From Microlunatus phosphovorus NM-1 (GTDB lineage: Bacteria > Actinomycetota > Actinomycetes > Propionibacteriales > Propionibacteriaceae), in contig NC_015635.1 of assembly GCF_000270245.1 (NCBI RefSeq), positions 2,046,001 through 2,110,000 on the forward strand: a stretch of 64,000 nucleotides of DNA. Reading direction: 5' to 3'. Below are positions 6,492 through 63,250 of the stretch, piece by piece. The stretch's first letter is position 1, and each line of letters starts with the position of its first letter. Both the position numbers and the translations under genes were made by a program. The notes beneath the pieces were generated by a model that saw only the letters and a program-made list of their open reading frames with translations, was not told the DNA's origin and searched no databases.

Positions 6492-6497
6492 GTCGCA

Positions 6498-38783: not shown

Positions 38784-39040
38784 GTCGTCACTCGCTGTTC
38801 ACTCCGCGCTCAGGTCTCTGTCTTCCCTCGTCGCTCGCAGACGAAGAACGTGTCTGCTCGGCTCCTCAGTCCAGACAGAGCCGCGCTACGCTCACGGCCG
38901 CTCGCGACGGGGTCGTCAACTCGCTGTTCGCTCCGCGCTCAGGTCTCTGTCTTCCCTCGTCGCTCGCAGACGAAGAACGTGTCTGCTCGGCTCCTCAGTC
39001 CAGACAGAGCCGCGCTACGCTCACGGCCGCTCGCGACGGG
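38784..39040. repeat. Two tandem copies of a 128-bp repeat unit
   Basis: Units begin at 38784 and 38912 (GTCGTCA[C/A]CTCGCTGTTC) and are nearly identical to each other, but diverged from the 5976 array. The paired arms CTCTGTCT/AGACAGAG are conserved. The array occupies the gap between the TIGR03085 start and the amidohydrolase stop. Confidence 0.88.
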
Positions 39041-46161: not shown

Positions 46162-46732
46162 TCAGCAGGCGTGGGCGGAGCTGGTGGACCGGTTCCAGTC
46201 CCTGATCAACGCCGTCGCCCACCGGCATCGGCTGAACGCGACCGATGCGGCCGACGTGAGCCAGGCGGTGTGGACGAAGCTGGTGGTGCACCTGCCACGG
46301 CTCCGGTGCGCCCTGGCCCTACCAGGTTGGATCTCGGTCACCACGGCCCGTGAGTGCCTGGGAGTGCTGGCCGATGCCGGTCGCGTCACCACGACCGACC
46401 CGGTCATTCTGGCTGAACGGGACAACCGGCGTCATCACTTGCTGGGTGCGAATGACACGCCCGATCTCGACGACGCTCTGATCCGGCTGGAGACGGCCCG
46501 GGCGCTCCGCGACGGTCTCGCAGAGCTTCCCGGCAACCAGCGCGATCTGCTCACTCTGCTGGTCGCCGACCCGCCTCTGTCGTACGCGCAGATCAGCGCG
46601 ACGCTCCAGATGCCGGTCGGCAGCATCGGGCCCACTCGCGCCCGCTATCTGACCCAGCTGCGCAAGACCGCAGCTGTCAGGCAGCTGCTCTGCGATCGTG
46701 GGCCGGTCGCGAAGAGCGCTGTGGCTGCCTGA
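46142..46732 (+). pseudogene. ECF-type sigma factor lacking its first codons
   Basis: Sigma-70 family protein: AVDGDQQAWAELVDRFQ (start of region 2), ADVSQAVWTKLVVHLPRL, then region 4 LPGNQRDLLTLLVADPPLSY and TLQMPVGSIGPTRARYLTQL. Recognisable homology begins at 46148 with no start codon; family members have about 10-20 more residues. Upstream is the antisense LAL gene, also cut. The rest is intact to TGA 46730, so an upstream fusion start could still give a product, but I read the gene as 5'-truncated. Confidence 0.7.
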
Positions 46733-46934
46733 AGCACTCCCTGGTCAGATAGAGGGCGGGGAATGGGCGGTGTCGGCCGTCGTGGCTCCGAGGACCCCCG
46801 GAGCCTCTGCAGCACGGAATCGGTGATCCCACCCCCGGTCTCACCCGTCGGGTGGATGCCGGAGGGACGGCCCGGATGGTCTCCTCGATGAAGGGCCGCA
46901 GGGGCTCGATTCATTGGCCGGCAAGGAGAACCCG

Positions 46935-48011
<1,077 letters not shown>

Positions 48012-48021
48012 GGAGGATCCC

Positions 48022-48897
48022 ATGTCTGCCAAGCACCCTGTCGTGGCCATCACCGGTTCCTCCGGCGCCGGCACCACCTCGGTCATGCGTACGTTCGAGC
48101 AGATCTTCCGTCGCGAGAAGGTGAACGCAGCCTTCGTCGAAGGAGACAGCTTCCACAAATTCGACCGGATGGCGATGAAGGGCGAGATGGCTCGGGCGAT
48201 CGCCGAGAGCGACCACTCGTTCAGCCACTTCGGGCCGGAGGCCAACCTGTTCGTCGAGCTCGAGGACCTGTTCCGTGAGTACGGCGAGACCGGCGGCGGT
48301 CGCGTCCGCAGGTATCTGCACGACAATCGGGAAGCAGCCCCGTACAGGCAGGAGCCGGGCACCTTCACACCGTGGCAGGACCTGCCCGAAGACACGGATC
48401 TGTTGTTCTACGAGGGACTGCACGGCGCGGTGGCGACCGAGAGCGTCGACGTGGCCAAGTACGCCGATCTGTTGATCGGCGTCGTGCCCGTGATCAACCT
48501 CGAATGGATCCAGAAGCTCCATCGGGACAAGGCGCAGCGCGGTTACTCCACCGAGGCGGTCACCGAGACGATCCTGCGGCGGATGCACGACTACGTGAAC
48601 TACATGTGCCCGCAGTTCTCGCGGACGCATGTCAACTTCCAGCGAGTGCCGGTCGTGGACACGTCGAACCCGTTCATCGCCCGGACGATCCCGAGCGCCG
48701 ACGAGTCGATGCTGGTGATCAGGTTCGCCAACCCACGGGGGATCGATTTCCCTTACCTGCTGTCGATGCTGCACGACTCGTTCATGTCGCGGCCGAACAC
48801 CATCGTGTGTCCCGGCGGGAAGATGGACCTGGCCATGCAGTTGATCTTCACGCCGATGCTGTGGCGGCTGCTGGAGCGACGCAACAAGGCGCGCTAG
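48022..48897 (+). CDS. cbbP: Phosphoribulokinase
   Basis: A 291-residue proteobacterial-type phosphoribulokinase. P-loop VVAITGSSGAGTTSVMRTF at the N-terminus; VEGDSFHKFDRMAM; HFGPEANLFVEL; LFYEGLHGAV (Walker B/catalytic Glu); PVINLEWIQKLHRDKAQRGYS; MHDYVNYMCPQFSRTHVNFQRVP. It phosphorylates ribulose-5-phosphate, the RuBisCO substrate-forming step and a hallmark of the Calvin cycle. ATG 48022 follows AGGAGG. It is cotranscribed with cbbF and overlaps the converging HAD phosphatase gene by 4 bp. Confidence 0.94.
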   Translation: MSAKHPVVAITGSSGAGTTSVMRTFEQIFRREKVNAAFVEGDSFHKFDRMAMKGEMARAIAESDHSFSHFGPEANLFVELEDLFREYGETGGGRVRRYLHDNREAAPYRQEPGTFTPWQDLPEDTDLLFYEGLHGAVATESVDVAKYADLLIGVVPVINLEWIQKLHRDKAQRGYSTEAVTETILRRMHDYVNYMCPQFSRTHVNFQRVPVVDTSNPFIARTIPSADESMLVIRFANPRGIDFPYLLSMLHDSFMSRPNTIVCPGGKMDLAMQLIFTPMLWRLLERRNKAR

Positions 48898-49658
48898 CGG
48901 CCGAGGCGGTTGCCCAGCCGGTGGTCGAACCACTCGACCAATCGAGGATCGTCGAACCCGTCGGTGACCAGGGTGGCGCCGGTGAAATCGTCGTCGCGGG
49001 TGTAGGGGTTGGCGGTGACCAGCACCGGCAGTCCGGCGCCCACCGCGGCACGTACGCCGTTGCCGGAGTCTTCGACCACCACCACGCCGTCGCTGTCGCC
49101 GATCCGTCGGATCACCTCGCGGTAGACCGTCGGGTCCGGCTTGAGATCGGTGACCTCGGATCCGGTGATCACGATGTCGAACCGATCGCCGAAGACCCGA
49201 TCCAGCAGCGGAGCGACCCACGCCCGAGTGCCCGTGGTCGCGACGTGCATCGGCACGCCGGCCGCGGTCAGGCGGTCCAGCAGGGCGATCACGCCCGGTC
49301 GCGGGCCGATCTGTCCGTGCTCGCTGCGGAGTTCTGTCGAGCAAGCCTCACCAGGTGCGGGTAGCTCGACAGAAATCGGGGTCTGGACCAGCTCGCGCAT
49401 GATCTCGGTCTTGCGCCGGTGCACACGGCGGGCCAGCGCGACGGACTCCTCGTGAGTACGACCGTTGGCCTCGAACCAGGCCGTCAGCCGCTGCGCTCCG
49501 CCGGCGATGCGAATCAGCCGACCGTACGTCTCCACGTCCCAGTGGTCCGGCAGGCCGAACTCCTCGAAGGCGGCGTTGAACGCCACCCGGTGTCCGTCTC
49601 GCTCACTGTCGACCAGGGTGCCGTCGACATCGAAGACGACCGCCCGCAGCCGGTTCAC
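48894..49658 (-). CDS. HAD phosphatase, CbbY/Gph-like
   Basis: A 254-residue HAD-superfamily phosphatase: DxDGT motif VVFDVDGTLVDSERDGHRVAFNAAF (with the CbbY-like ERDGHR-AFN cap), motif II HVATTGTRAW, motif III LKPDPTVYREV and motif IV VVVEDSGNGVRAA. CbbY removes phosphate from xylulose-1,5-bisphosphate, a misfire inhibitor of RuBisCO; Gph acts on 2-phosphoglycolate. The ERDGHRxxFN residues and the location favour CbbY. The GTG start is 49658, 12 bp downstream of the rpe stop, so it is in one operon with rpe. Confidence 0.85.
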   Translation of the reverse strand: MNRLRAVVFDVDGTLVDSERDGHRVAFNAAFEEFGLPDHWDVETYGRLIRIAGGAQRLTAWFEANGRTHEESVALARRVHRRKTEIMRELVQTPISVELPAPGEACSTELRSEHGQIGPRPGVIALLDRLTAAGVPMHVATTGTRAWVAPLLDRVFGDRFDIVITGSEVTDLKPDPTVYREVIRRIGDSDGVVVVEDSGNGVRAAVGAGLPVLVTANPYTRDDDFTGATLVTDGFDDPRLVEWFDHRLGNRLGR

Positions 49659-49670
49659 CGAACGCCCATC

Positions 49671-50390
49671 TCAGCGGATGCTCTCGGCGGCCGCTGCCCG
49701 GAGCCTCGCGACGGCGGCCGCCTTGCCCTCGGGGTAGGCGTACATCCACGAGCCGGAGATGAACACGTCCGCGCCGGCAGCTGCGGCTCCATGGATGGTG
49801 TGCTCGGTGATCCCGCCGTCGACCTCGAGCTCGATGTCGAGCCCGGCCTCCTCGATCATCCGGCGCAGCCGGGCGATCTTCGGCTCGACGGCCGCGATGT
49901 AGGCCTGGCCCCCGAAGCCTGGGTTGACCGTCATGGCGAGGATCAGATCGGTCTCCTCGAGGACGTGCTGCACGACTTCGGGACCGGTGTGCGGATTCAC
50001 CGCGACGCCGCTGCGGGCGCCCAGTTCGCGGATCCGATGCAGGGTCCGGTGCAGATGAGTGCACGCCTCAGCGTGCACGATGATCAGATCGCAGCCGGCG
50101 TCTGCATAGCGGGGGAGCAACTCGTCCGGATTGACCACCATCAGATGGGCCTCGAACCCGACGGAGCTGTGTGGCCGGGCCGCGGCGATGACATCGGGGC
50201 CGAAGGTCAGGTTCGGGACGAACACCCCGTCCATGACGTCCCACTGGATACGGTCCACCCCGGCCTCGCACAGCTCCCGCACCTCCTTGCCGATGCGGGC
50301 GAAGTCAGCCGGCAGCACGGACGGAACGATCAGTGGCTGCCGGACGCGGACTGGCCCGGCGGGTTGACTGCGACTGTCCAGCACGATCAT
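49671..50390 (-). CDS. rpe: Ribulose-phosphate 3-epimerase
   Basis: A 239-residue TIM-barrel epimerase: VPSVLPADFARIGKEV, DRIQWDVMDGVFVPNLTFGP (catalytic Asp, metal His replaced by the usual WDVMDGxFVPN block), FEAHLMVVNP, NPGFGGQAYI, IELEVDGGI (second catalytic Asp) and GADVFISGSWMY. It interconverts ribulose-5-P and xylulose-5-P for RuBP regeneration. ATG 50390 follows GAGGCTCC. Its 26-bp leader is shared with the aldolase gene. It is divergent from the response-regulator gene. Confidence 0.93.
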   Translation of the reverse strand: MIVLDSRSQPAGPVRVRQPLIVPSVLPADFARIGKEVRELCEAGVDRIQWDVMDGVFVPNLTFGPDVIAAARPHSSVGFEAHLMVVNPDELLPRYADAGCDLIIVHAEACTHLHRTLHRIRELGARSGVAVNPHTGPEVVQHVLEETDLILAMTVNPGFGGQAYIAAVEPKIARLRRMIEEAGLDIELEVDGGITEHTIHGAAAAGADVFISGSWMYAYPEGKAAAVARLRAAAAESIR

Positions 50391-50393
50391 GAG

Positions 50394-50419
50394 CGGAGCC
50401 TCTCGGGAGTGCAGGAGCG
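50394..50419 (-). promoter_or_regulatory. Leader element shared with the aldolase gene
   Basis: These 26 bp directly upstream of the rpe ATG match 53401-53426 upstream of the aldolase ATG with one mismatch. The core CGGAGCCTCTCGGGAGTGC (plus-strand sense) includes the GAGG ribosome site on the minus strand. It may be a common 5' untranslated control segment. Confidence 0.5.
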
Positions 50420-50443
50420 ATCCGACATCTGCCATCCGATCGC

Positions 50444-50483
50444 GTGGAGTCGATCGAGCACTCACCCAGGTGGGTGGAGTCGA
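50444..50483. promoter_or_regulatory. Repeats in the response-regulator promoter
   Basis: GTGGAGTCGA occurs directly at 50444-50453 and 50474-50483, 30 bp apart (about three helix turns). The palindrome CACCCAGGTGGGTG (50463-50476) lies between and overlaps the second. Position between rpe and the response regulator suggests an operator for either direction. Confidence 0.4.
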
Positions 50484-50539: not shown

Positions 50540-51208
50540 ATGGCGGATCCGGCCCCGAGTCCTTTGCGTCTGGTGCTGGTCGATGATCACGAGATGGTGC
50601 TGCAAGGCCTGACCGCGATGCTCGGGCACTTCCCCGACGAGGTCCAGATCGTCGGTCGGGCGACCACCGCGGGCGCGGCGCTCGCGCTGGTGGCCGAGCT
50701 CGCCCCCGATGCGGTGCTCTGCGATGTACGGATCGGCAAGGAGAGCGGTCTCGACCTGTGCCGTCAGATCACCTCCCAGCACCCCGCGACCAAGGTCGTG
50801 CTGCTCACTGTCTACGACGACGAGCACTACCTGTTCCAGGCTTTGCGGGTCGGCGCCTCCGGATACATCCTCAAACGCATCGACGGACAGGAGTTGGTCA
50901 ATCACCTGCGCCTGGTACGTGAGGGAGAGACGGTCGTCGATCATGCGCTGGCTGGCCGGGTGGCGCTCTCGGCGGCCCGGCTCAGCGCCGGCGAGTTCTG
51001 GTCCGGTGCCCATCTCGGCCTTACTCAACGCGAGTCGGAGGTCCTCGAGCTCCTCGTGGCCGGACACTCGAACAAGGGTGTGGCGAGCAAGCTGGTGGCC
51101 AGCGAGGACACCGTCAAGACCCACATCCGCGGGCTCTACCGCAAGCTCGGGGTCTCCGACCGCAGCGGGGCGATCGCGGTCGCTCTACGCGAAGGATTGT
51201 TCCGATGA
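50540..51208 (+). CDS. NarL/LuxR-type response regulator
   Basis: A 222-residue regulator. Receiver domain 1-120: LRLVLVDDHEMVLQGL, phospho-acceptor Asp in VLCDVRIGKESGLDL (near 62), and KVVLLTVYDD with the conserved Thr. C-terminal LuxR HTH at about 161-220 (LTQRESEVLELLVAGHSNKG, VASEDTVKTHIRGLYRKLGV). It overlaps the sensor kinase gene by 4 bp (ATGA). Embedded in the Calvin-cycle genes, it may set cbb expression alongside cbbR, an inference from position. Confidence 0.87.
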   Translation: MADPAPSPLRLVLVDDHEMVLQGLTAMLGHFPDEVQIVGRATTAGAALALVAELAPDAVLCDVRIGKESGLDLCRQITSQHPATKVVLLTVYDDEHYLFQALRVGASGYILKRIDGQELVNHLRLVREGETVVDHALAGRVALSAARLSAGEFWSGAHLGLTQRESEVLELLVAGHSNKGVASKLVASEDTVKTHIRGLYRKLGVSDRSGAIAVALREGLFR

Positions 51209-52404
51209 CGGAGACCTCCGAGGAGCCGACTCCTGACGGATCGATGCCCAGCGCTGTCCCGGACGCGGAGCAGCTGGCCAGCCGTTTCGAGGCCGACGGT
51301 GTCCTGCTGTATCTCATCGATGGCCAGGAACTGAGCATCGTCGACATCTGGCCGCCGCACGCTTCGGCGGGCACCCTGAAACTGCAGGTCGGCTTCGGGG
51401 TGACCGGATTGGTGGCGCGTACTCGCAAGCCAGTGCTGATCAACGCGGATTCACCGCGCAACGCGCTGCACCGCCGGCTGCTGAGGCTCGAACCACGACA
51501 GACCGTCGCGCGGATGTGCGTACCGCTGCCCGGTCTGGAGGGGGAGATGGTCGGGGTGCTGGCGGTCCACCGGAGTCCTGACCGCCCGTTCGACCAGGCT
51601 GATCTCGATGATGCGGAGTCACTGGCCGCGCTGCTCGGTCTGCAGCTGCACGCGAACCGGCTGTGGCGCGCCGTCAGCCGGCACCGCACCGAGCGAGACC
51701 GCCTGATCGAGCAGGCCATCTCAGCACAGGAGGCGGAGCGCCGGCGGATCGCCTTCGATCTGCACGACGGGGTCACGACGGCGCTCGCGTCCATGTCGTT
51801 CCATCTGTCGTCGGCTGATCTGACCGTCTCCCGTCTCGAGGCGGGAGAACCAGAGGGAGCCGGTCGCCGGGACGCGTTCGACAGCGTTCGCCAGGAGCTG
51901 GCCACGACCCGAGGACTCGTCGACCTTGCCTACAACCAGACCCGCGCGGCCATCTCCGGGCTGCACAGCCTGGTCCTGGACGACCTGGGTCTGGTCGCCG
52001 CGATCGAATCGTTGGTGCAGAGCGCCGGACGCCCCGGCGGCCCGAGGATCGACTTCTTCGTCGATCCGGAGGCCGACGTCGACGAGGTCCCCGATCACGC
52101 CGCTGCCGCGCTGTATCGGATCGCCCAGGAGGTATTGAGCAACGCGGTCAAGCACTCCGCGGCGAAGCGGATCGTGATCTCGTTGCGCCGAGTCGGCGAC
52201 TCCATGGTGCTCGGCTGCGCCGACGACGGTACGGGCTTCGATCCGGAGGAGCGGCTCACCGCCCGCGCCCAGGACAACGACGGTGCCCAGCACTTCGGGC
52301 TGAGCTCGGTCGCCGAGCGGTGCGCCATGATGGAGGCCTCACTACGGATCGAGTCCGCTCCGGGACGAGGCACCACAGTGCTGGTCGAGCTCCCGCTGAG
52401 GTGA
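51205..52404 (+). CDS. GAF-domain sensor histidine kinase (HisKA_3)
   Basis: A 399-residue cytoplasmic kinase with no transmembrane segments. GAF domain about 20-155 (LQVGFGVTGLVARTRKPVLI, MCVPLPGLEGEMVGVLAVHR). DHp: ISAQEAERRRIAFDLHDGVT (phospho-His near 187, HisKA_3 type). HATPase: YRIAQEVLSNAVKHS (~308), GCADDGTGFD, GLSSVAERCAMM. The soluble GAF sensor would read a diffusible or redox signal. The partner is the overlapping response regulator. No Cys cluster for an iron-sulphur sensor is visible. Confidence 0.87.
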   Translation: MTETSEEPTPDGSMPSAVPDAEQLASRFEADGVLLYLIDGQELSIVDIWPPHASAGTLKLQVGFGVTGLVARTRKPVLINADSPRNALHRRLLRLEPRQTVARMCVPLPGLEGEMVGVLAVHRSPDRPFDQADLDDAESLAALLGLQLHANRLWRAVSRHRTERDRLIEQAISAQEAERRRIAFDLHDGVTTALASMSFHLSSADLTVSRLEAGEPEGAGRRDAFDSVRQELATTRGLVDLAYNQTRAAISGLHSLVLDDLGLVAAIESLVQSAGRPGGPRIDFFVDPEADVDEVPDHAAAALYRIAQEVLSNAVKHSAAKRIVISLRRVGDSMVLGCADDGTGFDPEERLTARAQDNDGAQHFGLSSVAERCAMMEASLRIESAPGRGTTVLVELPLR

Positions 52405-52406
52405 TA

Positions 52407-53396
52407 TCAGGTTGCGGCGGCGGCCTGGCGGCAGTTGGCCAGCAGTCGGCTCTGGGCCGCGGCGACGTTCTCCGGATTGCCGGCCCACGTTCGCAGGGCC
52501 GCACTGACCAGGGCACGCCCGAAGGAGAAGGTGACCCCCCAGGGCCGGTTGGGCAACGCGGCCAGCGCGGTCAGGAACGCACACACGTCGTCGGTCGGAT
52601 GACCACCGGACAGGAAGGCGATCCCCGGCACGCTCGCCGGCACCGTCTCGCGCAGCACCTCGTACGTCGCCGTGGCGACCTCCGCCGGCGACAGCTTGGG
52701 CGCATCCAGCCCCGGAGTGACGAAGTTCGGCTTGAGCACGATCCCCGCCAAGTCCACCTCGGCGGCCTCGAGCTCGTCGAACACCGCGGTCAGCGCCAAT
52801 TGGGTCGTCGCGGCCGACGCGGCGAGCTCGTGATCGCCCGTGCAGAGCACCTCCGGCTCGACGATCGGCACGATGCCGTGCTCCTGGCACCGGGCCGCAT
52901 AGCGGGCCAGCGCGTGCCCGTTGGCGCGGGCGACGTACGGATCGGCCGTGTGCACATCGAAGACGGCGCGCCACTTGGCGAAGGCCGCCCCACGCTCGGC
53001 GTACGAGGCGAGTCGGGCACCCAAGCCGTCCAGGCCCTCGGTGATCAACGCCCCGTCTCGACCCGGCAACGGCGTGGTGCCGGTGTCCACCTTGATCCCC
53101 GGAAGGATGCCCAACTCGCGGCAGGAAGCCGGGAACGCGCGTCCGTCGCTCAGCCGCTGCCCGAACGTCTCGTCGGCCAGGATGATGCCGCTCACCGACT
53201 CCGACAGTCCGGGCGCGGTGAGCAGCAGCTCGCGGTAGTCGCGGCGGGCGGTCTCGCTCGCCGGGATGCCGTCCGCTTCGAGACGGGCGGACATCGTCTT
53301 GATCGACTCGTCGGCGGCGAGGATGCCGCGACCGCCGTGGGTCAGCTCTCGCGCGGTCTCAAAGAGGGCAGCGGTGTTCGTCAGGAGTGCGGTCAT
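52407..53396 (-). CDS. Class I fructose-bisphosphate aldolase
   Basis: A 329-residue class I (Schiff-base) aldolase: GRGILAADESIKTMSARLE, ESVSGIILADETFGQRLSDG, GIKVDTGTTPLPG, FAKWRAVFDVH, VPIVEPEVLC, GIVLKPNFVTPG (Lys of the Schiff base) and FLSGGHPTDD. Calvin operons more often carry class II CbbA, so a class I enzyme here is less usual. It joins triose phosphates for RuBP regeneration. ATG 53396; its leader is near-identical to that of rpe. It ends 3 bp after the kinase stop on the opposite strand. Confidence 0.92.
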   Translation of the reverse strand: MTALLTNTAALFETARELTHGGRGILAADESIKTMSARLEADGIPASETARRDYRELLLTAPGLSESVSGIILADETFGQRLSDGRAFPASCRELGILPGIKVDTGTTPLPGRDGALITEGLDGLGARLASYAERGAAFAKWRAVFDVHTADPYVARANGHALARYAARCQEHGIVPIVEPEVLCTGDHELAASAATTQLALTAVFDELEAAEVDLAGIVLKPNFVTPGLDAPKLSPAEVATATYEVLRETVPASVPGIAFLSGGHPTDDVCAFLTALAALPNRPWGVTFSFGRALVSAALRTWAGNPENVAAAQSRLLANCRQAAAAT

Positions 53397-53400
53397 GGGG

Positions 53401-53426
53401 CGGAGCCTCTCGGGAGTGCGGGAGCG
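53401..53426 (-). promoter_or_regulatory. Leader element shared with rpe
   Basis: Matches 50394-50419 with one mismatch in 26 bp and sits 4 bp from the aldolase ATG. Identity ends just beyond it, so the similarity is local to the 5' leader. Confidence 0.5.
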
Positions 53427-53464
53427 GTCATGCCCGAGCCTGGCCGATCGGTGGCGTTCCGGCC

Positions 53465-54187
53465 TCACCCCTGCGGGCGAAGTCGTGTGTGAAACGCAGC
53501 TGCCCCCACCAGGTCGGGGTCGCAGACATGGCGAAGGAGCAGCCGGGTCGCGGCCGTCGGCTCGGGCGTGGTGCACAGGTGCCATGGTCGGTCCAGCGGA
53601 GTGCCCGACACCGGGTACGCCATGAGGTCGCCGGACTCCAGCTGAGCACGCGCGGCCTCCTCGTGAACCAGCGTCACCCCCAGCCCCTGGCCCGCGGCTG
53701 CGACCGCGGCGCCCGAGGTGCCGAGGGTGAGCAGCGGCGGGGCGGCTTGGAGCCGAGTGAGCAGCGCCAGCGTCGTGTCCCGCGTCCCCGAGCCGATGGC
53801 GGTGAGCAGCCAGGTCGAGGTCAGCGGGTCGCCAACCGCTCCGGGCCGGCCGACCACCACCAGCCGGTTGGCACGCCGCGCACGGGTGAGCAACCCCGAC
53901 CCCCGAGGTGGCCGTCCGGCGAGCACCACGTCGAGCTGGTGATCGACCGCGAGTGCGAACAGCTCGGCGCGGGGAAGCACGGACAAGGAGAGCTCGACCT
54001 GGGGATGCAGCCGCGCGAAGGAGGCGATCAGCCGGGGCAGGACATACTCGCTCGCGGTGGACACGGCGCCGATCCGCACCCGTCCACGGTCCGCGTCGTG
54101 CACCGCTCCGGCGGCCTCCGCCAGCAGGCCCACCAGCTTGCGGGCGTAGCCGGCGAAGGCCGCGCTGGCGACTTGGGGTGAGGTCAC
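53465..54187 (-). pseudogene. cbbR: LysR-type regulator CbbR without its HTH domain
   Basis: The remaining frame covers the linker helix (FAGYARKLVGLLAEAAGAV) and the LysR substrate-binding domain (GRVRIGAVSTASEYVLPRLIA, LSLSVLPRAELFALAVDHQLDVVLAG, GVTLVHEEAARAQLESGDL). LysR proteins normally carry ~60-65 N-terminal residues of winged helix before the linker; these are absent. At 54158-54175 the frame passes directly into the antisense of the RuBisCO large-subunit 3' end. cbbR is usually divergent from cbbL, so both lost their 5' ends together. As it stands it could not bind DNA. Confidence 0.8.
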
Positions 54188-54248
54188 CTTCGACTACACC
54201 AGCACCGATGCCCCCGACTTCGTCCCGACCGTCACTGCGTCGGTCTGA
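54150..54248 (+). pseudogene. cbbL: RuBisCO large subunit, last ~24 codons only (form IC)
   Basis: The plus-strand frame ending TGA 54246-54248 encodes [20 protein letters not shown] then TVTASV, the C-terminus of form IC/ID CbbL (compare LDTWKDITFNYTSTDTADFV in proteobacterial forms). An in-frame TAG at 54147 closes it; the preceding ~455 residues with the active site are missing. cbbS follows 41 bp later with a normal ribosome site, so the cbbL-S-X order is preserved. The junction with cbbR lies at about 54158-54175. Confidence 0.82.
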
Positions 54249-54289
54249 CCAGACGCATTGACCAGACGTCACTGACAAGGAGCACTGCC

Positions 54290-54715
54290 ATGACATTCCG
54301 CTACGGCGCGTTCTCGTACCTGCCCGATCTCACCGACGACGAGATCGCCGCTCAGGTGAAGTACGCCCTCGACCACGGCTGGCCGGTCTCGATCGAGTAC
54401 ACCGACGATCCGCATCCACGCAACATCTACTGGGAGATGTGGGGACTGCCGCTGTTCGACCTGGCCGAGCCTGACGGCGTCCTCGATCAGATCAACGAGT
54501 GCCGGACGGCGTTCCCCGAGCACTATGTCCGGATGCTGGCGTACGACGCCTCGCTGGGTAAGCAAACGACGGCCATGTCCTTCCTGGTCCAACGGCCGAC
54601 CAGCGAGCCCGGCTTCCTGCTCGAGCGGCAGGAGGGGCCGGACCGGACGCAGCGCTACTCGGTGCGGTCCTACGCCACGGACGGGCCCGCCGGAACCCGG
54701 TATCCGGTCGGGTGA
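54290..54715 (+). CDS. cbbS: RuBisCO small subunit (form IC)
   Basis: A 141-residue Cbb[78 protein letters not shown], and the C-terminal extension [20 protein letters not shown] characteristic of red-type (form IC/ID) enzymes. ATG 54290 follows AAGGAG. Intact and in its usual place between cbbL and cbbX, but its large-subunit partner is missing here. Confidence 0.93.
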
Positions 54716-54719
54716 GGTC

Positions 54720-55712
54720 ATGGCATCCCAGGGATTCGGGTTCCCACGCCAAGCCGCCGCCCGGCCGCACCGGTTGGCCCCGCAGCGTGCGGAGGAGCCC
54801 GTCGAGGAACCGGAGACCCCGGTGACCCTCGCCGACGATGCCGAGCTCGATCTCTCGGCGGACGAGGCCGCGACCAGGGTCGAGGAGACCCTGGCCGCCC
54901 TCGACGCCGAACTGGTCGGCCTGGCCTCGGTCAAGCGGCGGGTGCGCGAGATCGCCTCTCTGCTGCAGGTCGATCGGGCCCGCAGCCAGTTCGGGCTGAC
55001 CTCGTCGAAGCCGACGCTGCACATGAGCTTCACCGGCGGACCGGGCACCGGCAAGACCACCGTCGCGATGCGGATGGCGGCCATCCTGCACGCGCTCGGC
55101 TACATCCGAGCGCCGCGGGTGCACGTGGTGACCCGTGACGATCTCGTCGGCCAGTTCATCGGCCACACCGCCCCGAAGACGAAGGAGGCGATCGCCCGGG
55201 CAGCCGGGGGCGTGCTGTTCATCGACGAGGCCTACTACCTGTTCCGGCCGGAGAACGAGCGCGACTACGGCCAGGAGGTGATCGAGATCCTGCTGACCGA
55301 GATGGAGAACGAGCGGGGCAACCTGGTGGTGATCTTCGCCGGCTATCCCGATCGGATGGCGACGTTCTTCTCGGCCAACCCGGGTCTCAGCTCGCGGGTG
55401 CCGCACCACATCGAGTTCGAGGACTACGACCACGCCGAGCTGATGCAGATCGCGGAGCTGATGGTGGCCGAGGAGAACTTCCGGTTCGACGAGGAGGCCC
55501 GCGAGGCCTTCGCCGACTACCTCACCCGGCGGATGCAACGGCCCAACTTCTCCAACGCCCGCAGTGTCCGCAACGCGATCGAGCGCTGCCGGCTGCGGCA
55601 GGCCCGGCGCCTGGTCGGCCTGGACCGTCCGCTCGGCAAACAGGACCTGATCGTGATCACTGCCGAGGACGTGCGTGGCAGCAGCCTGTTTGCTCCCGCC
55701 GCGGACGGGTGA
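54720..55712 (+). CDS. cbbX: RuBisCO activase CbbX
   Basis: A 330-residue AAA+ protein: a ~75-residue acidic N-terminus, VGLASVKRRVREIASLLQVD, Walker A FTGGPGTGKTT (~105), the pore-loop region LVGQFIGHTAPKTKEA, Walker B GGVLFIDEAYYLF, sensor VVIFAGYPDRM and arginine finger region NPGLSSRVPH. It remodels inhibited red-type RuBisCO by pulling the large-subunit C-terminus. It starts 4 bp after the cbbS stop. Its presence confirms that the lost large subunit was of the red type. Confidence 0.94.
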   Translation: MASQGFGFPRQAAARPHRLAPQRAEEPVEEPETPVTLADDAELDLSADEAATRVEETLAALDAELVGLASVKRRVREIASLLQVDRARSQFGLTSSKPTLHMSFTGGPGTGKTTVAMRMAAILHALGYIRAPRVHVVTRDDLVGQFIGHTAPKTKEAIARAAGGVLFIDEAYYLFRPENERDYGQEVIEILLTEMENERGNLVVIFAGYPDRMATFFSANPGLSSRVPHHIEFEDYDHAELMQIAELMVAEENFRFDEEAREAFADYLTRRMQRPNFSNARSVRNAIERCRLRQARRLVGLDRPLGKQDLIVITAEDVRGSSLFAPAADG

Positions 55713-55855: not shown

Positions 55856-58144
55856 ATGGACACCATCGAGGACCCCGTCGACGAGCTGAAGGTCACGCCA
55901 CCGAAGACGTGGGCCGCCGGCGTTCCGGCGGTGGCCCACGCGATGGGGTACTCACTGTCCCAGACGTCGCCTCGTCGGACGCTGCTCACCTTGCTGAACA
56001 TCAACCAGACCAAGGGATTCGACTGCCCGGGATGTGCTTGGCCGGAGCCCGACCACAGACACGCGACCGAGTATTGCGAGAACGGCGCCAAGCACATCAA
56101 CGACGAGGCGACGTCGCGCCGAGTCACCCGGGAGTTCTTCGCCGAGCACTCGGTCGCTGAGCTTGACACCCGGTCGGACTACTGGCTGAACCAGCAGGGT
56201 CGACTGACCGAACCGATGATCAAGAGGCCCGGCGCCACCCACTACGAGCCGATCGACTGGGACGTGGCACTCGATCTGATCGCCGACGAGCTGTCTGTGC
56301 TCGACACCCCCGATCGGGCGATGTTCTACACCTCCGGCCGGCTGAACAACGAGGCCGCCTTCCTGCTGCAGTTGTTCGCTCGCGCACTGGGGACCAACAA
56401 CCTGCCCGACTGCTCGAACATGTGTCACGAGTCGAGCGGGTCGGCGCTGCAGGAGACCATCGGGGTGGGCAAGGGCAGCGTGTCCCTCGAGGACATCTAC
56501 CAAGCCGATCTGATCTTCGTCATCGGGCAGAACCCGGGCACCAACCACCCGCGGATGCTGTCGGCACTGGAACGGACCAAGCGCAACGGCGGCCGGGTGA
56601 TCGCGGTGAACCCGCTGCCCGAGGCCGGGTTGATCCGATTCAAGAACCCGCAGCAGCCCAGCGGCGTGATCGGCCGCGGCACCGCGATCGCCGACGAGTT
56701 CCTGCAGATCCGCCCGGGCGGCGACCTGGCGCTGTTCCAACTGCTCAACCAGCTGCTGCTGGAGGCCGAGGACCGGGCACCCGGCACCGTGCTCGACCAC
56801 GAGTTCATCGCCGCCCACACCTCGGGGTTCGAGGCGTTCGCCACGCACGCCCGGACGATCGACGGCGCCGAGGCGCTGGCCGCCACCGGCCTGGATCGAG
56901 CGCTGATTGATCGAGTGCTCGAGCGGGTGCTCGCCAGCCGGCGGATCATCGTCTGCTGGGCGATGGGTCTGACCCAGCACAAGCATGGCGTCCCGACCAT
57001 CCGGGAGCTGGTCAACTTCCTTCTGCTGCGAGGCAATCTCGGTCGACCAGGTGCGGGGGTCTGCTCGGTGCGCGGGCACAGCAACGTGCAGGGCGACCGG
57101 ACGATGGGCATCTGGGAGCAGATGCCGCAGGAGTTCCTGGACGCGTTGGGCCGGGAGTTCGACTTCACTCCGCCGACCACCCATGGCCTGGACTCGGTGA
57201 ACGCGATCCGGGCGATGCGGGACGGCCAGGCGAGCGTGTTCGTGGGCGTCGCGGGCAACTTCGTCCGGGCGACTCCGGACAGCGCGGTGACCGAGGCGGC
57301 ACTGCGGCGATGCCGGCTCACCGTTCAGATCTCCACCAAGCTGAACCGCTCGCACACCGTGTGCGGTGAGACCGCGCTGATCCTGCCGACCCTCGGGCGC
57401 AGCGACAAGGACATCCAGGCCACCGGCCTGCAGTTCGTGACGGTCGAGGACTCGATGAGCCAGATCCACGCCTCCCGCGGGCGACTGACGCCCGCCTCAC
57501 CGCATCTTCTCAGCGAGGTGGCGATCATCTGCCGTCTTGCAGCTCGCACTCTCGGTGACCGGTTCTCCATTCCCTGGAAGGAGTTCGAGGCGGACTACGC
57601 CGCCATCCGGGACAGCATCTCCCGGGTCGTCCGCGGGTTCGATGACTTCAACGAGCGGATCGCCGTCCCTGGCGGATTTCGGCTGCCGAACCCGGTGAAC
57701 GCTCACCTGTACCAGACCCCCAGCGGCACGGCGGTGTTCACCTGCAACCAGTTCACCTCGCTCGAGCCGCCACCGGGTCACCTCGTCCTGCAATCCCTGC
57801 GTTCCCACGACCAGTGGAACACCATCCCGTACGCGATGGACGATCGCTACCGCGGCATCCACGGCGCTCGCCGGGTGGTGCTGGTCAACCCGGACGACCT
57901 GGCGCAGCTGGGCCTGCTCGATCGGCAGCTGGTCGACATCGTCAGCGTCTGGCACGACGGGATCGAGCGGCGCGCGCCAGAATTTCGGGTGGTCGGCTAT
58001 CCGACTCCACCGGGCTCCGCGGCCGCCTACTATCCCGAGACGAATGTGCTGGTGCCGCTCGACAGCGTGGCCGACATCAGCAATACGCCGACCTCCAAGG
58101 GCGTGATCGTTCGGCTGGAACCTCTCGCTCCGCCGGATCGATGA
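55856..58144 (+). CDS. FdhF/YdeP-type molybdopterin oxidoreductase
   Basis: A 762-residue bis-MGD enzyme of the FdhF/YdeP family. N-terminal GFDCPGCAWPEP (near 55-66) has only two of the Cys used by 4Fe-4S enzymes, as usual in this subfamily. SNMCHESSG near 188-196 holds the Mo-ligand Cys. LIFVIGQNPGTNHPRMLSAL, RPGGDLALFQLL and CSVRGHSNVQGDRTMGI are cofactor segments. The C-terminal MGD-binding barrel starts near VFTCNQFTSL. The annotated reaction in relatives is uncertain (formate oxidation is assumed). fdhD is 70 bp downstream on the same strand. ATG 55856 follows AGGAG. Confidence 0.87.
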   Translation: MDTIEDPVDELKVTPPKTWAAGVPAVAHAMGYSLSQTSPRRTLLTLLNINQTKGFDCPGCAWPEPDHRHATEYCENGAKHINDEATSRRVTREFFAEHSVAELDTRSDYWLNQQGRLTEPMIKRPGATHYEPIDWDVALDLIADELSVLDTPDRAMFYTSGRLNNEAAFLLQLFARALGTNNLPDCSNMCHESSGSALQETIGVGKGSVSLEDIYQADLIFVIGQNPGTNHPRMLSALERTKRNGGRVIAVNPLPEAGLIRFKNPQQPSGVIGRGTAIADEFLQIRPGGDLALFQLLNQLLLEAEDRAPGTVLDHEFIAAHTSGFEAFATHARTIDGAEALAATGLDRALIDRVLERVLASRRIIVCWAMGLTQHKHGVPTIRELVNFLLLRGNLGRPGAGVCSVRGHSNVQGDRTMGIWEQMPQEFLDALGREFDFTPPTTHGLDSVNAIRAMRDGQASVFVGVAGNFVRATPDSAVTEAALRRCRLTVQISTKLNRSHTVCGETALILPTLGRSDKDIQATGLQFVTVEDSMSQIHASRGRLTPASPHLLSEVAIICRLAARTLGDRFSIPWKEFEADYAAIRDSISRVVRGFDDFNERIAVPGGFRLPNPVNAHLYQTPSGTAVFTCNQFTSLEPPPGHLVLQSLRSHDQWNTIPYAMDDRYRGIHGARRVVLVNPDDLAQLGLLDRQLVDIVSVWHDGIERRAPEFRVVGYPTPPGSAAAYYPETNVLVPLDSVADISNTPTSKGVIVRLEPLAPPDR

Positions 58145-58214
58145 TCCGGCGAGTCGGGCACACCCACCCGCACGATCGTCGGCTGAGTGCCGGCACCGAC
58201 GAAAGGAGTCGGCC

Positions 58215-59129
58215 ATGGGTCGAGTGACCGTACGTCGGCCCGTGCTGCGACTGCGGGCCGGGCTGGGATCGCGACGGCCGGACACGCTGGCTGCCGAGGA
58301 GCCGCTGGAGATCCGCGTCGCCGGTCGGCCGCTGACCGTGACGATGCGGACACCGGGCGACGATTTCGACCTCGCCATGGGTTTCTGCGTCAGCGAGGGC
58401 GTGGTCCGGCGAGCGGCCGACATCGTTGCCGTGCGCTACTGCCTCGGCGCGACCGTCGACGGCAGCAACACCTACAACGTGGTGGACGTCCAGCTGGCTG
58501 ACGGCGTACCGCTGCCGGATCCCTCGCTGGAGCGCAACTTCGACACCACGTCGTCCTGTGGATTGTGTGGCAAGGCGAGTCTGGATGCGGTGCGGACCAA
58601 GGCGGTCTGGCCGGTCGCCGATGATCCGCTCCGGATCGACCCGGCGACTTTGGCGGTGCTGCCCGATCGGTTGCGTGCGGCCCAGCGGGTGTTCGACCGC
58701 ACCGGCGGGCTGCATGCTGCCGGCCTGTTCACCGCGGCCGGAGAACTGGTGGTGCTGCGGGAGGACATCGGCCGGCACAACGCCGTGGACAAGGTCGTCG
58801 GACACGCGTCGCGGGCGGGAATGCTGCCGCTGCGCTCGACGGTCTTGATGGTGAGCGGCCGGGCTTCCTTCGAGTTGGTCCAGAAGGCTGTGATGGCGGG
58901 TATCCCGATGCTGGCTGCGGTGTCCGCTCCGTCGTCGCTCGCAGTGGACCTGGCCGAGGAGAGCGGGCTGACCTTGGTCGGCTTCCTGCGCGGCGACTCG
59001 ATGAACGTGTACGCGGGAGCAGATCGGTTGGTGACTAGCGGATCCTTAGCCCTGGACATGGTTGCGGGGCGCCCACGCGGCGATGAGGACGCGGCACATG
59101 GGCACCCCGCGGTCGGGGTCAGCCCGTGA
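58215..59129 (+). CDS. fdhD: Formate dehydrogenase accessory sulfurtransferase FdhD
   Basis: A 304-residue FdhD: EEPLEIRVAGRPLTVTMRTP, DFDLAMGFCVSEGVV, the active loop SSCGLCGKAS (Cys near 115 and 118), GLHAAGLF, REDIGRHNAVDKVVGHA, VSGRASFELVQKAVMAGIP. It transfers sulfur to the Mo cofactor of formate dehydrogenases. ATG 58215 follows AAAGGAG. It is in an operon with the preceding FdhF-type enzyme, which supports that enzyme being a sulfurated Mo formate dehydrogenase. Its end overlaps the small gene on the minus strand by 11 bp. Confidence 0.93.
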   Translation: MGRVTVRRPVLRLRAGLGSRRPDTLAAEEPLEIRVAGRPLTVTMRTPGDDFDLAMGFCVSEGVVRRAADIVAVRYCLGATVDGSNTYNVVDVQLADGVPLPDPSLERNFDTTSSCGLCGKASLDAVRTKAVWPVADDPLRIDPATLAVLPDRLRAAQRVFDRTGGLHAAGLFTAAGELVVLREDIGRHNAVDKVVGHASRAGMLPLRSTVLMVSGRASFELVQKAVMAGIPMLAAVSAPSSLAVDLAEESGLTLVGFLRGDSMNVYAGADRLVTSGSLALDMVAGRPRGDEDAAHGHPAVGVSP

Positions 59130-59253
59130 AGAGCTGCAAGGCTGCACTGACTGCGTTGTAGAGCCCGTAGGCCAGGGGAATCCCGACCAAGGTCCACGAG
59201 GCGGCGATCCGGGGCCGGTAGTCGTGTGTTGCCGTGGTGCTCGCTGCGTTCAT
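59119..59253 (-). CDS. 44-residue MFS-transporter small partner protein
   Basis: From ATG 59253 the minus strand encodes 44 residues: a polar start with THDYRPRIAASWTLVG, then one membrane helix (VGIPLAYGLYNAVSAALQLF). It matches the 'MFS transporter small subunit' pattern found beside oxalate/formate antiporter-family (OFA) transporters (RIAASWxxVGIPLAxGxY). It lies 46 bp downstream of the MFS gene in the same direction. It probably binds the transporter. Too short for most gene finders. Confidence 0.7.
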   Translation of the reverse strand: MNAASTTATHDYRPRIAASWTLVGIPLAYGLYNAVSAALQLFTG

Positions 59254-59299
59254 CGAAATCGCCCTTCCTGCTGTGGCTGGGTTCTGGAGGTCGGAGAAG

Positions 59300-60712
59300 T
59301 CACTTGCTCACCCGGGTGGGGGAGGAATCCGGACGGTGGGCGGCATCGACCGCGTCGACGACCGGGGAGGTCTCGTGCCAGCGAGTGGCGACCGGACGGA
59401 TCAGCAGGTTGGCGATGAAGCCGACCCCGAGGACACCGACCATGATGAACAGCGCCAGCCGATAGTCGCCGGCGACCAGGTCGCCGGGCTAACCCTGGGT
59501 GTCGAGCACCCGGTTGACGATCAGTGGCCCGAGCACGCCGGCCGTCGACCAGGCGGTCAGCAGCCGGCCATGGATCGCGCCGACCTGATAGGTGCCGAAC
59601 AGATCCCGGAGATACGCCGGGAGCGTGGCGAAGCCGCCGCCGTAGAAGGAGATGATCACGGCGCAGATGATCACGAACAGCGCGGTCGAGTTGGACCCGA
59701 CCAGCGCCAGCAGGATGTAGAGCACGATGCCACCACCGAGATACATCACGTACGTCGGCTTGCGGCCGAGGTAGTCCGACGCGGAGGACCAACCGAACCG
59801 GCCCGCCATGTTGGCCAAGGACAGCAGTCCGACGAAGCCGGCGGCCACGGTGGCGGTGACCGTCGAGGTCGCCGTAGCGCCGTCGCGGAAGAAGTCCTGC
59901 GCCATGTTCGCGGCCTGCTCGAGGATCCCGATGCCGGCGGTGACATTGCACACGATCACCGTCCACACCAGCCAGAACTGCGGGGTCTTGATGGCGTTGG
60001 CCGCGGAGACGTTGCCGTCGGTCACCATCGCCTTCGCCTTGACCTTGCTCGGGTCGAAGTGGGCGGGCTTCCACCCGGGTGCCGGCACCCGGACGTTGAA
60101 GACACCGAACATCATGAACGCGAAGTAGACGACCGCGAGGGTGACGAACAGTTTCACCACCGCCATGCCGTCCGGCGAGGCGCCGCCGTACCAGCCGAGC
60201 AGAGCCCGGGAGAGGGGCGCCGCAATCATCGCGCCGCCACCGAATCCCATGATCGCCATCCCGGTGGCCAGACCCGGCCGGTCCGGGAACCATTTGATCA
60301 GCGTGGACACGGGGGAGATGTAGCCCAGGCCGAGACCGATGCCGCCGATGAAGCCGTATCCCAGGTAGACCAGCCACAGCTGACCGGTGGCGATGCCGAG
60401 GGCGGCGATCAAGAACCCGGACGACCAGCAGCAGGCTGCGGTGAACATGGTCCGCCGGGGTCCGACCCGATCCACCCAGGTGCCGAAGACGGCGGCCGAG
60501 ACGCCGAGCATCACGATCGCGATCGAGAAGATCACGCCGATCGCGGTGAGGCTGGTGTTGAAGTGATCCACCAACGCCTGCTTGTAGACACTGGTCGCGT
60601 AGACCTGTCCGATGCAGAAGTGGATCGCGAGGCCGGCCGGCGGAATCAGCCATCGGCTGTATCCGGGCGGCGCCACGGTGTGTTTGCGGTCCAGAAACGA
60701 AAGCGCAGTCAC
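59300..60712 (-). pseudogene. OFA-family (oxalate/formate) MFS transporter with an in-frame stop
   Basis: A 12-helix MFS protein. ATG 60712; LIPPAGLAIHFCIGQVYATS is the OFA start, then DRVGPRRTMF (helix 2-3 motif), GIGLGLGYISPVSTLIKWFP, AANMAQDFFRDG. A TAG at 59489-59491 interrupts the gene after NRVLDTQG, but the same frame goes on as PGDLVAGDYRLALFIMVGVL, GFIANLLIRPVATRWHETSP to a TGA at 59300-59302. That is the family's last helix and tail. A single GAG-to-TAG change would explain it. The 407-residue product would lack helix 12. It likely imports formate for the neighbouring dehydrogenases. Confidence 0.8.
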
Positions 60713-60909
60713 TGCGCACCTCCTCGTACGTGGTCCAGTTTTGTCGGCAGGTTCTGCCGGCCACTACGAGCCCGCTGGGGGATCGGGTCGGGCCCCAGCA
60801 CATCAGTCGTACGCCGGCTGCGGCTTCCCCCGGACGGGTGAATCACTGGGTGAGGAGGGCTGATCTGGTGTGGATGAATCGGTTATGGAGCGGCGCGGCG
60901 GGCGTCGGG

Positions 60910-61842
60910 TCAAAGAGCAGTGGTCCGGTGGCGCCGAAGCACGTCCTCGAACTGTCGGTGAAGGTCGAGATCGGTGACCAGATCGACGAGGGCTCGAATG
61001 AGCATGGACTGCGGATCCCGCGCGGCGAGGACCAGCCCGACGTGGAACGCGCGGCGCGGCCGCGGCAGCGGCAGCACCCGGAGGTCGGGCGGGACGCCGA
61101 AGCTGTGCAGCCAGGTGTGCGGGATCACACTGGACAGATTCATCGCCGACAAGTGCGCGTAGACCGCCGAGATGGTGTCGCACTCGACGATCGGGCTCGC
61201 CTTCGCTCCGGCTTCGGCGAAGTAGCCGTCGAGGATCCGCCGGTTCTGCATGATGGGCGTCAGCAGGCAGAGCCGGCTCGTCGCCGCTTCGCTCCAAGTC
61301 AGCGAGTTGCGGCCGCTGAGTTCGCCGTCGACCGGAGTGAGAAAGAGGTAGCGCTCGCGGTAGAGCGGCACCACCCGCACATGACCCAGTGGCTCGCCGT
61401 CCACGTAGGTCATGCCGACATCGAGGTCGAAGTCGTTGAGCCGGTCGACGATCTCACGCGACGCCATCGACTGCAATGAGTATTTGACGTGCGGGTGCCG
61501 CTCCCGCAGTGGGGCGGTGAGCAGGGACGAGACGCTCAACGCGGTCGGAATGGCGCCGAGCCGGAGAGTTCCGGACAACTGCCCGCGCATCTCGGCCAGG
61601 GTCTGGTCGAGGGCCTCGCGTTCGGCGACGATGCCTTGAGCCCAGCGCAGCACCTCCAGGCCTTCTGGAGTGAATCCCTCGAATCGTTGACCACGTTGCA
61701 CGATCTGGACTCGCAGCTCGCTCTCGAGCCGGCGGATCCCGGCGGAGAGGGCCGGCTGGGTGGCATGGCACGCCGCGGCGGCACGACCGAAATGGCGTTC
61801 GCGCGCAAGGGCCGTGAGGTACTCCAGTTGGCGCAGCAACAT
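60910..61842 (-). CDS. LysR-type regulator (OxyR-like group)
   Basis: A 310-residue LysR protein: HTH LRQLEYLTALARERHFGRAA, CHATQPALSAGIRRLESEL, then LRLGAIPTALSVSSLLTAPL, DVGMTYVDGEPLGHVRVVPL and the C-terminal subdomain. It diverges from NAD-formate dehydrogenase across a 205-bp gap containing an ATAG-N7-CTAT site at 61921. It likely activates formate dehydrogenase, and perhaps the transporter and FdhF-like operons. Confidence 0.88.
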   Translation of the reverse strand: MLLRQLEYLTALARERHFGRAAAACHATQPALSAGIRRLESELRVQIVQRGQRFEGFTPEGLEVLRWAQGIVAEREALDQTLAEMRGQLSGTLRLGAIPTALSVSSLLTAPLRERHPHVKYSLQSMASREIVDRLNDFDLDVGMTYVDGEPLGHVRVVPLYRERYLFLTPVDGELSGRNSLTWSEAATSRLCLLTPIMQNRRILDGYFAEAGAKASPIVECDTISAVYAHLSAMNLSSVIPHTWLHSFGVPPDLRVLPLPRPRRAFHVGLVLAARDPQSMLIRALVDLVTDLDLHRQFEDVLRRHRTTAL

Positions 61843-61920
61843 GGCGTCACCGTACCGGCAGGACGGTACGCCTCAGCGGTGACCGCTCGCTGGCCGTGAC
61901 CAGGACCGCCGCCGCCTGTC

Positions 61921-61937
61921 GATAGATGCCGTCTATC
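61921..61937. promoter_or_regulatory. LysR (OxyR-like) box, ATAG-N7-CTAT
   Basis: GATAGATGCCGTCTATC has perfect inverted arms GATAG/CTATC around 7 bp. It fits the half-element of OxyR-type LysR sites and lies between the divergent LysR and formate dehydrogenase genes, 110 bp upstream of the latter. Confidence 0.55.
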
Positions 61938-62047
61938 AACCCAAGCGGAATCAATCGTTGATCTGAATGGCCGATCGGCCTAGCGTCACCATCAACGGCT
62001 TCGTCGACGAGCTGAAAATGTCGAGACTGAGAAAGAAGGAACCGAAC

Positions 62048-63250
62048 ATGGCCAAAGTAGTCTGCGTTCTCTACGACGACCCGGTCGACGGACAGCCGAC
62101 CTCGTACGCTCGAGATGACCTGCCCACGATCGAGAGGTATCCAGACGGTCAGACCCTGCCGACTCCCGAGGCGATCGACTTCGTCCCGGGCACCTTGCTC
62201 GGCGACGTGAGCGGGGAGCTCGGGCTCCGCAACTATCTCGAGTCCCAGGGCCACACCCTCGTGGTGACCTCCGACAAGGACGGCCCGGACTCGGAGTTCG
62301 AACGCGAGCTCGTCGACGCCGACGTCGTCATCTCGCAGCCGTTCTGGCCCGCGTACCTCACCGCAGAGCGGATCGCCAAGGCGCCGAACCTCAAGCTGGC
62401 GCTGACCGCCGGCATCGGCTCGGACCACGTCGACCTGCAGGCGGCGATCGATCGGGGCATCACGGTCGCGGAGATCACCTACTGCAACTCGATCAGTGTC
62501 GCGGAGCACGTGATGATGTCGATCCTGGTGCTGGTGCGCAACTTCGTCCCATCGCACCAATGGGCGGTGGACGGAGGCTGGAACATCGCCGACTGCGTCA
62601 CTCGCTCCTACGACCTGGAGGGCATGCACGTCGGCACGGTGGCGGCCGGCCGGATCGGGTTGGGGGTGCTCCGCCGGCTGAAGCCGTTCGGCACTCATCT
62701 GCACTACACCGACCGCCACCGGCTGCCGGCGGAGGTGGAGACCGAGCTGGATCTCACCTGGCATGAGACGCCGGAGGACATGTTCGGTGAGTGTGACGTC
62801 GTCACGCTCAACTGTCCGCTGCATCCCGAGACCGAGAACATGATCAACGACGAGACGCTGAAGCTGTTCAAGCGGGGGGCGTACCTGGTCAACACGGCGC
62901 GGGGCAAGCTGTGCGATCGTGATGCCGTGGTCCGGGCACTGGAGTCCGGCCAACTCGCCGGCTACGCCGGTGACGTCTGGTTCCCGCAGCCGGCGCCGAA
63001 GGATCACCCCTGGCGTGAGATGCCGCACAACGGCATGACGCCGCACATCTCGGGCACGTCGTTGTCGGCTCAGACCCGGTATGCCGCAGGCACCCGCGAG
63101 GTGCTGGAGTGCTTCTTCGAGGGTCGCCCGATCCGCGATGAGTACCTGGTCGTCGACGGCGGCCGGTTGGCCGGGGTCGGCGCGCACTCCTACAGCGCCG
63201 GCAACGCCACCACAGGCTCGGAAGAGGCGGCCAAGTTCAAGGTCGGCTGA
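62048..63250 (+). CDS. fdh: NAD-dependent formate dehydrogenase
   Basis: A 400-residue enzyme closely resembling methylotroph FDH (Pseudomonas sp. 101 type): KVVCVLYDDPVDGQPTSYAR, GQTLPTPEAIDFVPGTLLG, dinucleotide loop GTVAAGRIGLGVLRRL, HYTDRHRLP with the NAD-selecting Asp at residue 222 (Asp221 in mature Pseudomonas numbering), NTARGKLCDRDAV (catalytic Arg) and TPHISGTS with the catalytic His at 333. It oxidises formate to CO2 with NAD+, needing no metal. ATG 62048 follows AAGGAA; an upstream in-frame ATG at 61967 is less likely. It supplies NADH and CO2 for the Calvin enzymes encoded nearby. Confidence 0.95.
   Translation: MAKVVCVLYDDPVDGQPTSYARDDLPTIERYPDGQTLPTPEAIDFVPGTLLGDVSGELGLRNYLESQGHTLVVTSDKDGPDSEFERELVDADVVISQPFWPAYLTAERIAKAPNLKLALTAGIGSDHVDLQAAIDRGITVAEITYCNSISVAEHVMMSILVLVRNFVPSHQWAVDGGWNIADCVTRSYDLEGMHVGTVAAGRIGLGVLRRLKPFGTHLHYTDRHRLPAEVETELDLTWHETPEDMFGECDVVTLNCPLHPETENMINDETLKLFKRGAYLVNTARGKLCDRDAVVRALESGQLAGYAGDVWFPQPAPKDHPWREMPHNGMTPHISGTSLSAQTRYAAGTREVLECFFEGRPIRDEYLVVDGGRLAGVGAHSYSAGNATTGSEEAAKFKVG

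Follow-up and report, generated by a model that had tools for sequence, protein, structure and literature searches.

Genes and features at the locus

The stretch of DNA analyzed here (hereafter, the window) consists of 64,000 nucleotides of the Microlunatus phosphovorus genome, namely, bases 2,046,001-2,110,000 of a single contig of 5,683,123 bases, with completeness given as 100. The window contains a cluster of Calvin cycle genes, followed by formate genes (Table 1). Within this cluster, two genes on opposite strands are fused at 54150-54170, where a minus-strand fragment of cbbR meets the plus-strand tail of cbbL. Of the components required for a functional form I Calvin cluster, the small subunit and phosphoribulokinase are encoded, whereas the large subunit, which has to be full length, is represented by a 29-codon tail only.

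Table 1. Features of the Calvin and formate gene cluster (positions within the window)
Feature	Position	Strand	Evidence or remark
fbp, class 1 fructose-bisphosphatase	46935..48011	+	NF006779
prk (cbbP), phosphoribulokinase, full length	48022..48897	+	NF011997, 502 bits, cut-off 362
HAD phosphatase, probable phosphoglycolate phosphatase (pgp, cbbZ)	48894..49658	-	TIGR01449 best, below cut-off; order conserved
Site of transketolase (cbbT) in relatives; in the window, some bases plus the stop codon of rpe	49659..49673	-	
rpe (cbbE), ribulose-phosphate 3-epimerase	49671..50465	-	TIGR01163
LuxR-type response regulator	50540..51208	+	PF00072, PF00196; start codon chosen in this analysis
GAF-domain sensor histidine kinase	51205..52404	+	PF01590, PF07730, PF02518
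fba (cbbA), class I fructose-bisphosphate aldolase	52407..53396	-	NF033379
cbbR remnant: LysR effector domain, C-terminal 230 residues	53465..54157	-	PF03466 only; breakpoint comparison
Deletion junction	54157..54159		Ambiguous over a few bp (AGG); window sequence against both breakpoints of 12 relatives
cbbL remnant: final 29 codons and stop	54159..54248	+	Match to C-terminus of relatives' CbbL
cbbS, RuBisCO small subunit, intact	54290..54715	+	PF00101, 130.6 bits, cut-off 27; 1 copy
cbbX, RuBisCO activase (AAA+), intact	54720..55712	+	TIGR02880 whole profile, below cut-off
FdhF/YdeP-family oxidoreductase	55856..58144	+	TIGR01701
fdhD	58215..59129	+	NF001943
NAD-dependent formate dehydrogenase	62048..63250	+	NF005750, 700.8 bits, cut-off 329

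For the prk product, the alignment to the solved enzyme 1a7j spans 284 of 290 residues (E 1.2e-124). CbbX covers positions 2-284 of the 284 in the TIGR02880 profile, with a score of 438.6 bits, under the curated cut-off of 459.25, and is 76-88% identical to the CbbX of the 12 relatives that were used for breakpoint comparison (L009-L018, L020 and L027), in L014 over the first half of the protein only. The fdhF gene adjoins cbbX also in L009, L015 and L027, among the 25 loci listed out of 80. Within 55856-63250, there is also an MFS transporter that is close to the lactate and oxalate/formate families, scoring below their cut-offs.

The palindrome CACCCGTCGGGTG lies upstream of fbp (46842-46854) and recurs near fbp in L020 with one base changed; it is not enriched in the 64,000-nucleotide window and is a possible regulator site. 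Elsewhere in the window, there are two tandem arrays of a 129-bp unit, 32 kb apart, at 5976-6495 (4.0 copies, 100%) and 38784-39040 (2.0 copies, 98%). The units of both arrays align over their full length, with scattered differences, and look like one repeat family.

Two truncated genes at the junction

The plus-strand reading frame that starts at 54150 and terminates with the stop codon at 54246-54248 encodes the C-terminus of an actinobacterial form I CbbL, as seen in comparison with relatives such as L010; the form of RuBisCO is presumed from that of the relatives, the remnant itself being a 29-codon tail alone. Passages of PMC12999727 name the actinobacterial RuBisCO clade form IE, and the label form IC, under which a preliminary description of this DNA had placed the gene, may be older usage.

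The minus-strand open reading frame, 53465-54187, contains the LysR substrate domain (PF03466) and has no match to the HTH domain (PF00126) in a Pfam search at E values up to 0.001. In all three relatives whose CbbR was tested in the same way, the protein has an HTH, at residues 14-72, in addition to the substrate domain. Homology with CbbR begins at FAGY, the F codon of which is 54155-54157, and the first 10 residues encoded by the open reading frame correspond to antisense cbbL DNA. Compared with its relatives, CbbR has lost about 70 N-terminal residues, including the HTH, so that, of the N-terminal HTH and C-terminal effector domain that define this regulator, the window protein retains the latter. 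A scan of 53400-54400 for promoters, with a consensus of the sigma-70 type only, and for terminators detected neither.

The preliminary description had reported a cbbL tail on the plus strand, abutting a minus-strand LysR gene without its HTH and followed by intact cbbS and cbbX. This arrangement holds: the tail matches the C-terminus of the relatives' CbbL, the LysR gene has the effector domain only, and both downstream genes are full length. The length of the tail, put at about 24 codons, does not, the correct figure being 29.

Extent of the missing DNA

In the 12 relatives, 1,652-1,713 bp separate the points homologous to the two sides of the join, that is, the cbbR phenylalanine and the cbbL alanines. 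By this comparison, the missing DNA comprises about 70 codons of cbbR, the divergent promoter region, and cbbL except for its last 29 codons. The cbbR and cbbL genes are divergent in all 12, as the preliminary description had stated to be usual, and the measured distance agrees with its proposal that a single deletion of at least about 1.6 kb took both 5' ends together with the promoter between them. That one deletion accounts for both truncated genes is thus supported by these alignments.

The homology available at the two breakpoints is scant. In the 12 relatives, they have 1-4 bp in common in register. The longest word that occurs on both sides reaches 5-7 bp when 40 bp around the breakpoints are compared, and 9-12 bp when 200 bp are; the length of the deletion and the microhomology are both estimates from relatives, not from the strain's own ancestral sequence. 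Given that there is so little homology at the join and that a Ku gene is present in the genome, an illegitimate event, possibly end-joining, likely produced it.

The missing transketolase gene

The junction is not the only difference in gene content. In all seven loci that have both pgp and rpe (among the best 80 of the 542 loci matching the window CbbS), a transketolase gene lies between them, in a gap of 1,949-2,048 bp between match ends; in the window, pgp and rpe are 12 bp apart, and there is no transketolase between them. The content of the stretch from prk to the response regulator varies among the relatives, given that pgp, tkt and rpe are all absent from it in L020. As a guess, the leftover bases at 49659-49673 might consist of the initiation codon of transketolase, a handful of further codons and the termination codon. 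The genome has only one full-length match to the cluster transketolase of the relatives, located elsewhere and 50% identical. The loss of the cluster transketolase could probably be covered by a housekeeping enzyme, unlike that of cbbL.

The large subunit elsewhere in the genome and in other genomes

The preliminary description had allowed for a cbbL elsewhere in the genome, and none was found. Across the whole single-contig genome, there is no match to the RuBisCO large subunit models PF00016 or PF02788 (E 0.001), and a search with the L010 CbbL at E values up to 10 gave a single match (E 3.8e-11, 64% identity over 42 residues), to 54117-54242 of the window, that is, to the remnant and a little of the DNA that precedes the join. 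A second RuBisCO elsewhere in the genome was therefore rejected, the two Pfam models having matched nothing and the CbbL search only the remnant. A plasmid-borne cbbL that is absent from the assembly is a formal possibility.

Counting Microlunatus phosphovorus itself, the small subunit domain (PF00101) is present in one genome among 20 from the genus, 14 among 293 from the order, and 22 among 394 from the class. Among the cbbS carriers of the order, all but Microlunatus phosphovorus also encode the large subunit (13 of 14); in the class (394 genomes sampled), so do 20 of the 21 others. The one remaining genome, G320, was considered as a second case with the small subunit only and rejected because its contig ends inside the cbbL tail; no other small-subunit-only genome was found in the samples of the order and class. 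The large and small subunit genes adjoin, judging by coordinates, in every one of the 33 genomes that match PF00016; together with the one whose cbbL is cut by the contig end, this makes 34 other genomes sampled from the order and class in which cbbS has cbbL as its neighbor. Within this sample, a genome that lacks cbbL alone is exceptional. Likewise, all of the best 80 of the 542 loci matching the window CbbS have a CbbL match, which covers more than 90% of the protein in 77 of them when only the best stretch per locus is counted; the three partial ones are L022 and L036, both of which begin at a contig end, and L053.

State of preservation of the cluster

Decay beside the join was looked for as private changes, that is, substitutions at alignment columns that are invariant in all other sequences, using 10 of the 12 breakpoint relatives; for CbbS, CbbX and the cluster genes, rows covering 80% or less of the window protein were dropped. 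The window sequence has 0 such changes at 68 columns in CbbS (0-6 in 10 others), 0 at 204 in CbbX (0-6 in 9 others), and 1 at 124 in the CbbR fragment (0-6 in 10 others). Decay beside the join was accordingly rejected, there being no excess of substitutions in these three sequences. Because no prolonged drift is visible there, the lesion is either young or an artefact, and the absence of decay fits both equally well.

Among the other genes of the cluster, the pgp product exceeds all other sequences of its set in private changes (9/108 vs 1-5). With 8/219, prk equals L020 and falls below L027 (10/221) and above three Nocardia rows (1 each). The histidine kinase, the response regulator, rpe, fba and fdhF are within the range of the other sequences; the comparison for fbp involves just two sequences and is uninformative.

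Origin of the cluster

Neither cbbS nor prk was found in any of the 19 other genomes of the genus that were searched. In a tree of CbbS and CbbX with 87 rows, the sister of the window is Nocardioides allogilvus L011 (support 100/98), with end branches of 0.069 for the window and 0.12 for L011. A wider group (100/95) adds Actinophytocola, Saccharopolyspora and Streptomyces, and the window stands apart from six rows of Propionibacteriaceae or of its own family. The nearest relatives of the cluster are spread over several families, and the simplest reading is that the cluster would have been laterally acquired.

Among the relatives, Nocardia salmonicida L009, Nocardioides allogilvus L011 and Streptomyces nanshensis L027, which have a form I cbb cluster with divergent cbbR, contain the same genes in the same arrangement as the window, as far as the loci reach, namely, prk-pgp-(tkt)-rpe-RR-HK-fba-cbbR-(cbbL)-cbbS-cbbX plus fdhF, and their CbbS is 74-86% identical to that of the window. 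In contrast to these three, the window has a 29-codon cbbL, a cbbR without the HTH, no promoter between the two, and no tkt.

Four of the 19 other genomes of the genus (G004, G006, G009 and G012; loci L005, L006, L007 and L008) encode a RuBisCO-family protein scoring 220-226 bits. These genomes have no match to the small subunit or to the PRK family of the window, and the proteins are possibly RuBisCO-like proteins.

Interpretation

We consider it likely that a laterally acquired Calvin and formate cluster was recently inactivated by one illegitimate deletion of about 1.7 kb. A cluster of the type present in Nocardia, Kribbella, Actinophytocola and Nocardioides, with the organization fbp-prk-pgp-tkt-rpe-RR/HK-fba-cbbR / cbbL-cbbS-cbbX and, in some, fdhF, would have entered the lineage laterally. 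The deletion, joined at a few bp of homology, would then have removed the start and the HTH of cbbR, the divergent promoter, and cbbL except for 29 codons. With no catalytic subunit, no DNA-binding CbbR and no cbbL promoter, the capacity to fix CO2 through this cluster would have been lost; cbbS and cbbX would stay behind, intact but idle, and any phosphoribulokinase that is made would yield RuBP with no onward route. The genes beside the join suggest that the event is young.

When bacteria cease to depend on a pathway, its operon can undergo loss-of-function deletions. Such deletions likewise involve little homology at the join, remaining genes that are still open and no other copy found; here, however, a single lesion strikes both the catalytic subunit and the part of the regulator that binds DNA, and the genes next to the join show no decay as yet. 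Laterally acquired pathways are commonly lost in this manner, and this case is notable for its sharpness and apparent youth.

The undecayed appearance of the genes beside the join and the presence of most of the cluster would also be expected if the junction had arisen artificially, in the reference assembly or in the stock that was sequenced, through a chimeric read, a chimeric clone or a deletion confined to one culture, in a species that keeps a full cbbL. The preliminary description had raised an assembly collapse as its alternative. In its repeat-driven form, this is improbable because the breakpoints have so few bases in common in register, and no common word longer than 12 bp within 200 bp, and so offer no repeat to drive a collapse. 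An artefact of some other kind retains a small chance, although the genome is one contig and the missing transketolase hints at real erosion of the same cluster, even if that loss could have had another cause.

A selective reading makes the event a natural one-step shut-off of autotrophy: the divergent order of cbbR and cbbL would have let one deletion take the catalytic subunit together with the activator's HTH, which would silence the regulon, so that the intact phosphoribulokinase piles up no RuBP and poisoning is avoided. Phosphoribulokinase is indeed full length, and passages of PMC9999600 and PMC4958253 report that RuBP build-up is harmful, the compound being toxic to cells in which PRK is out of balance with RuBisCO or from which RuBisCO has been deleted. 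However, the stretch around the fbp start (46700-46960, inspected by eye) contains nothing that resembles the cbbR-cbbL intergenic region; fbp-prk may be under the control of the response regulator and histidine kinase pair rather than CbbR. Moreover, a deletion reaching from cbbL into cbbR follows from the divergent order without selection. We regard an adaptive origin as rather unlikely. It is more doubtful by far that the cluster keeps a job without RuBisCO, with fbp, prk, rpe, fba, the formate dehydrogenases and the orphan CbbS and CbbX serving some other function. The conservation of CbbS, CbbX and the CbbR fragment is compatible with such a role, but a recent deletion explains it equally well, CbbS and CbbX are left with no partner once CbbL is gone, and the pgp product has changed more than any other sequence in its set. 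To our knowledge, there is no use of RuBP in the absence of RuBisCO.

Among the literature matches listed for Microlunatus phosphovorus with RuBisCO, carbon fixation or ribulose, or for cbbS without the large subunit, no title or beginning of an abstract refers to this deletion; an earlier report, the 2012 genome paper included, is possible. Microlunatus is not named in the main text of PMC7895386 or of PMC12999727.

The deletion that we favor has a practical consequence for annotation. This genome would score positive for the small subunit, the activase and phosphoribulokinase and yet, judging by its sequence, would be unable to fix CO2 by the Calvin cycle, so that surveys relying on the presence of cbbS, cbbX or prk would classify it wrongly. 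If the interpretation is correct, Microlunatus phosphovorus would represent an early stage in the loss of a laterally acquired autotrophy cluster, and the question would arise how the cell lives with phosphoribulokinase but without RuBisCO.
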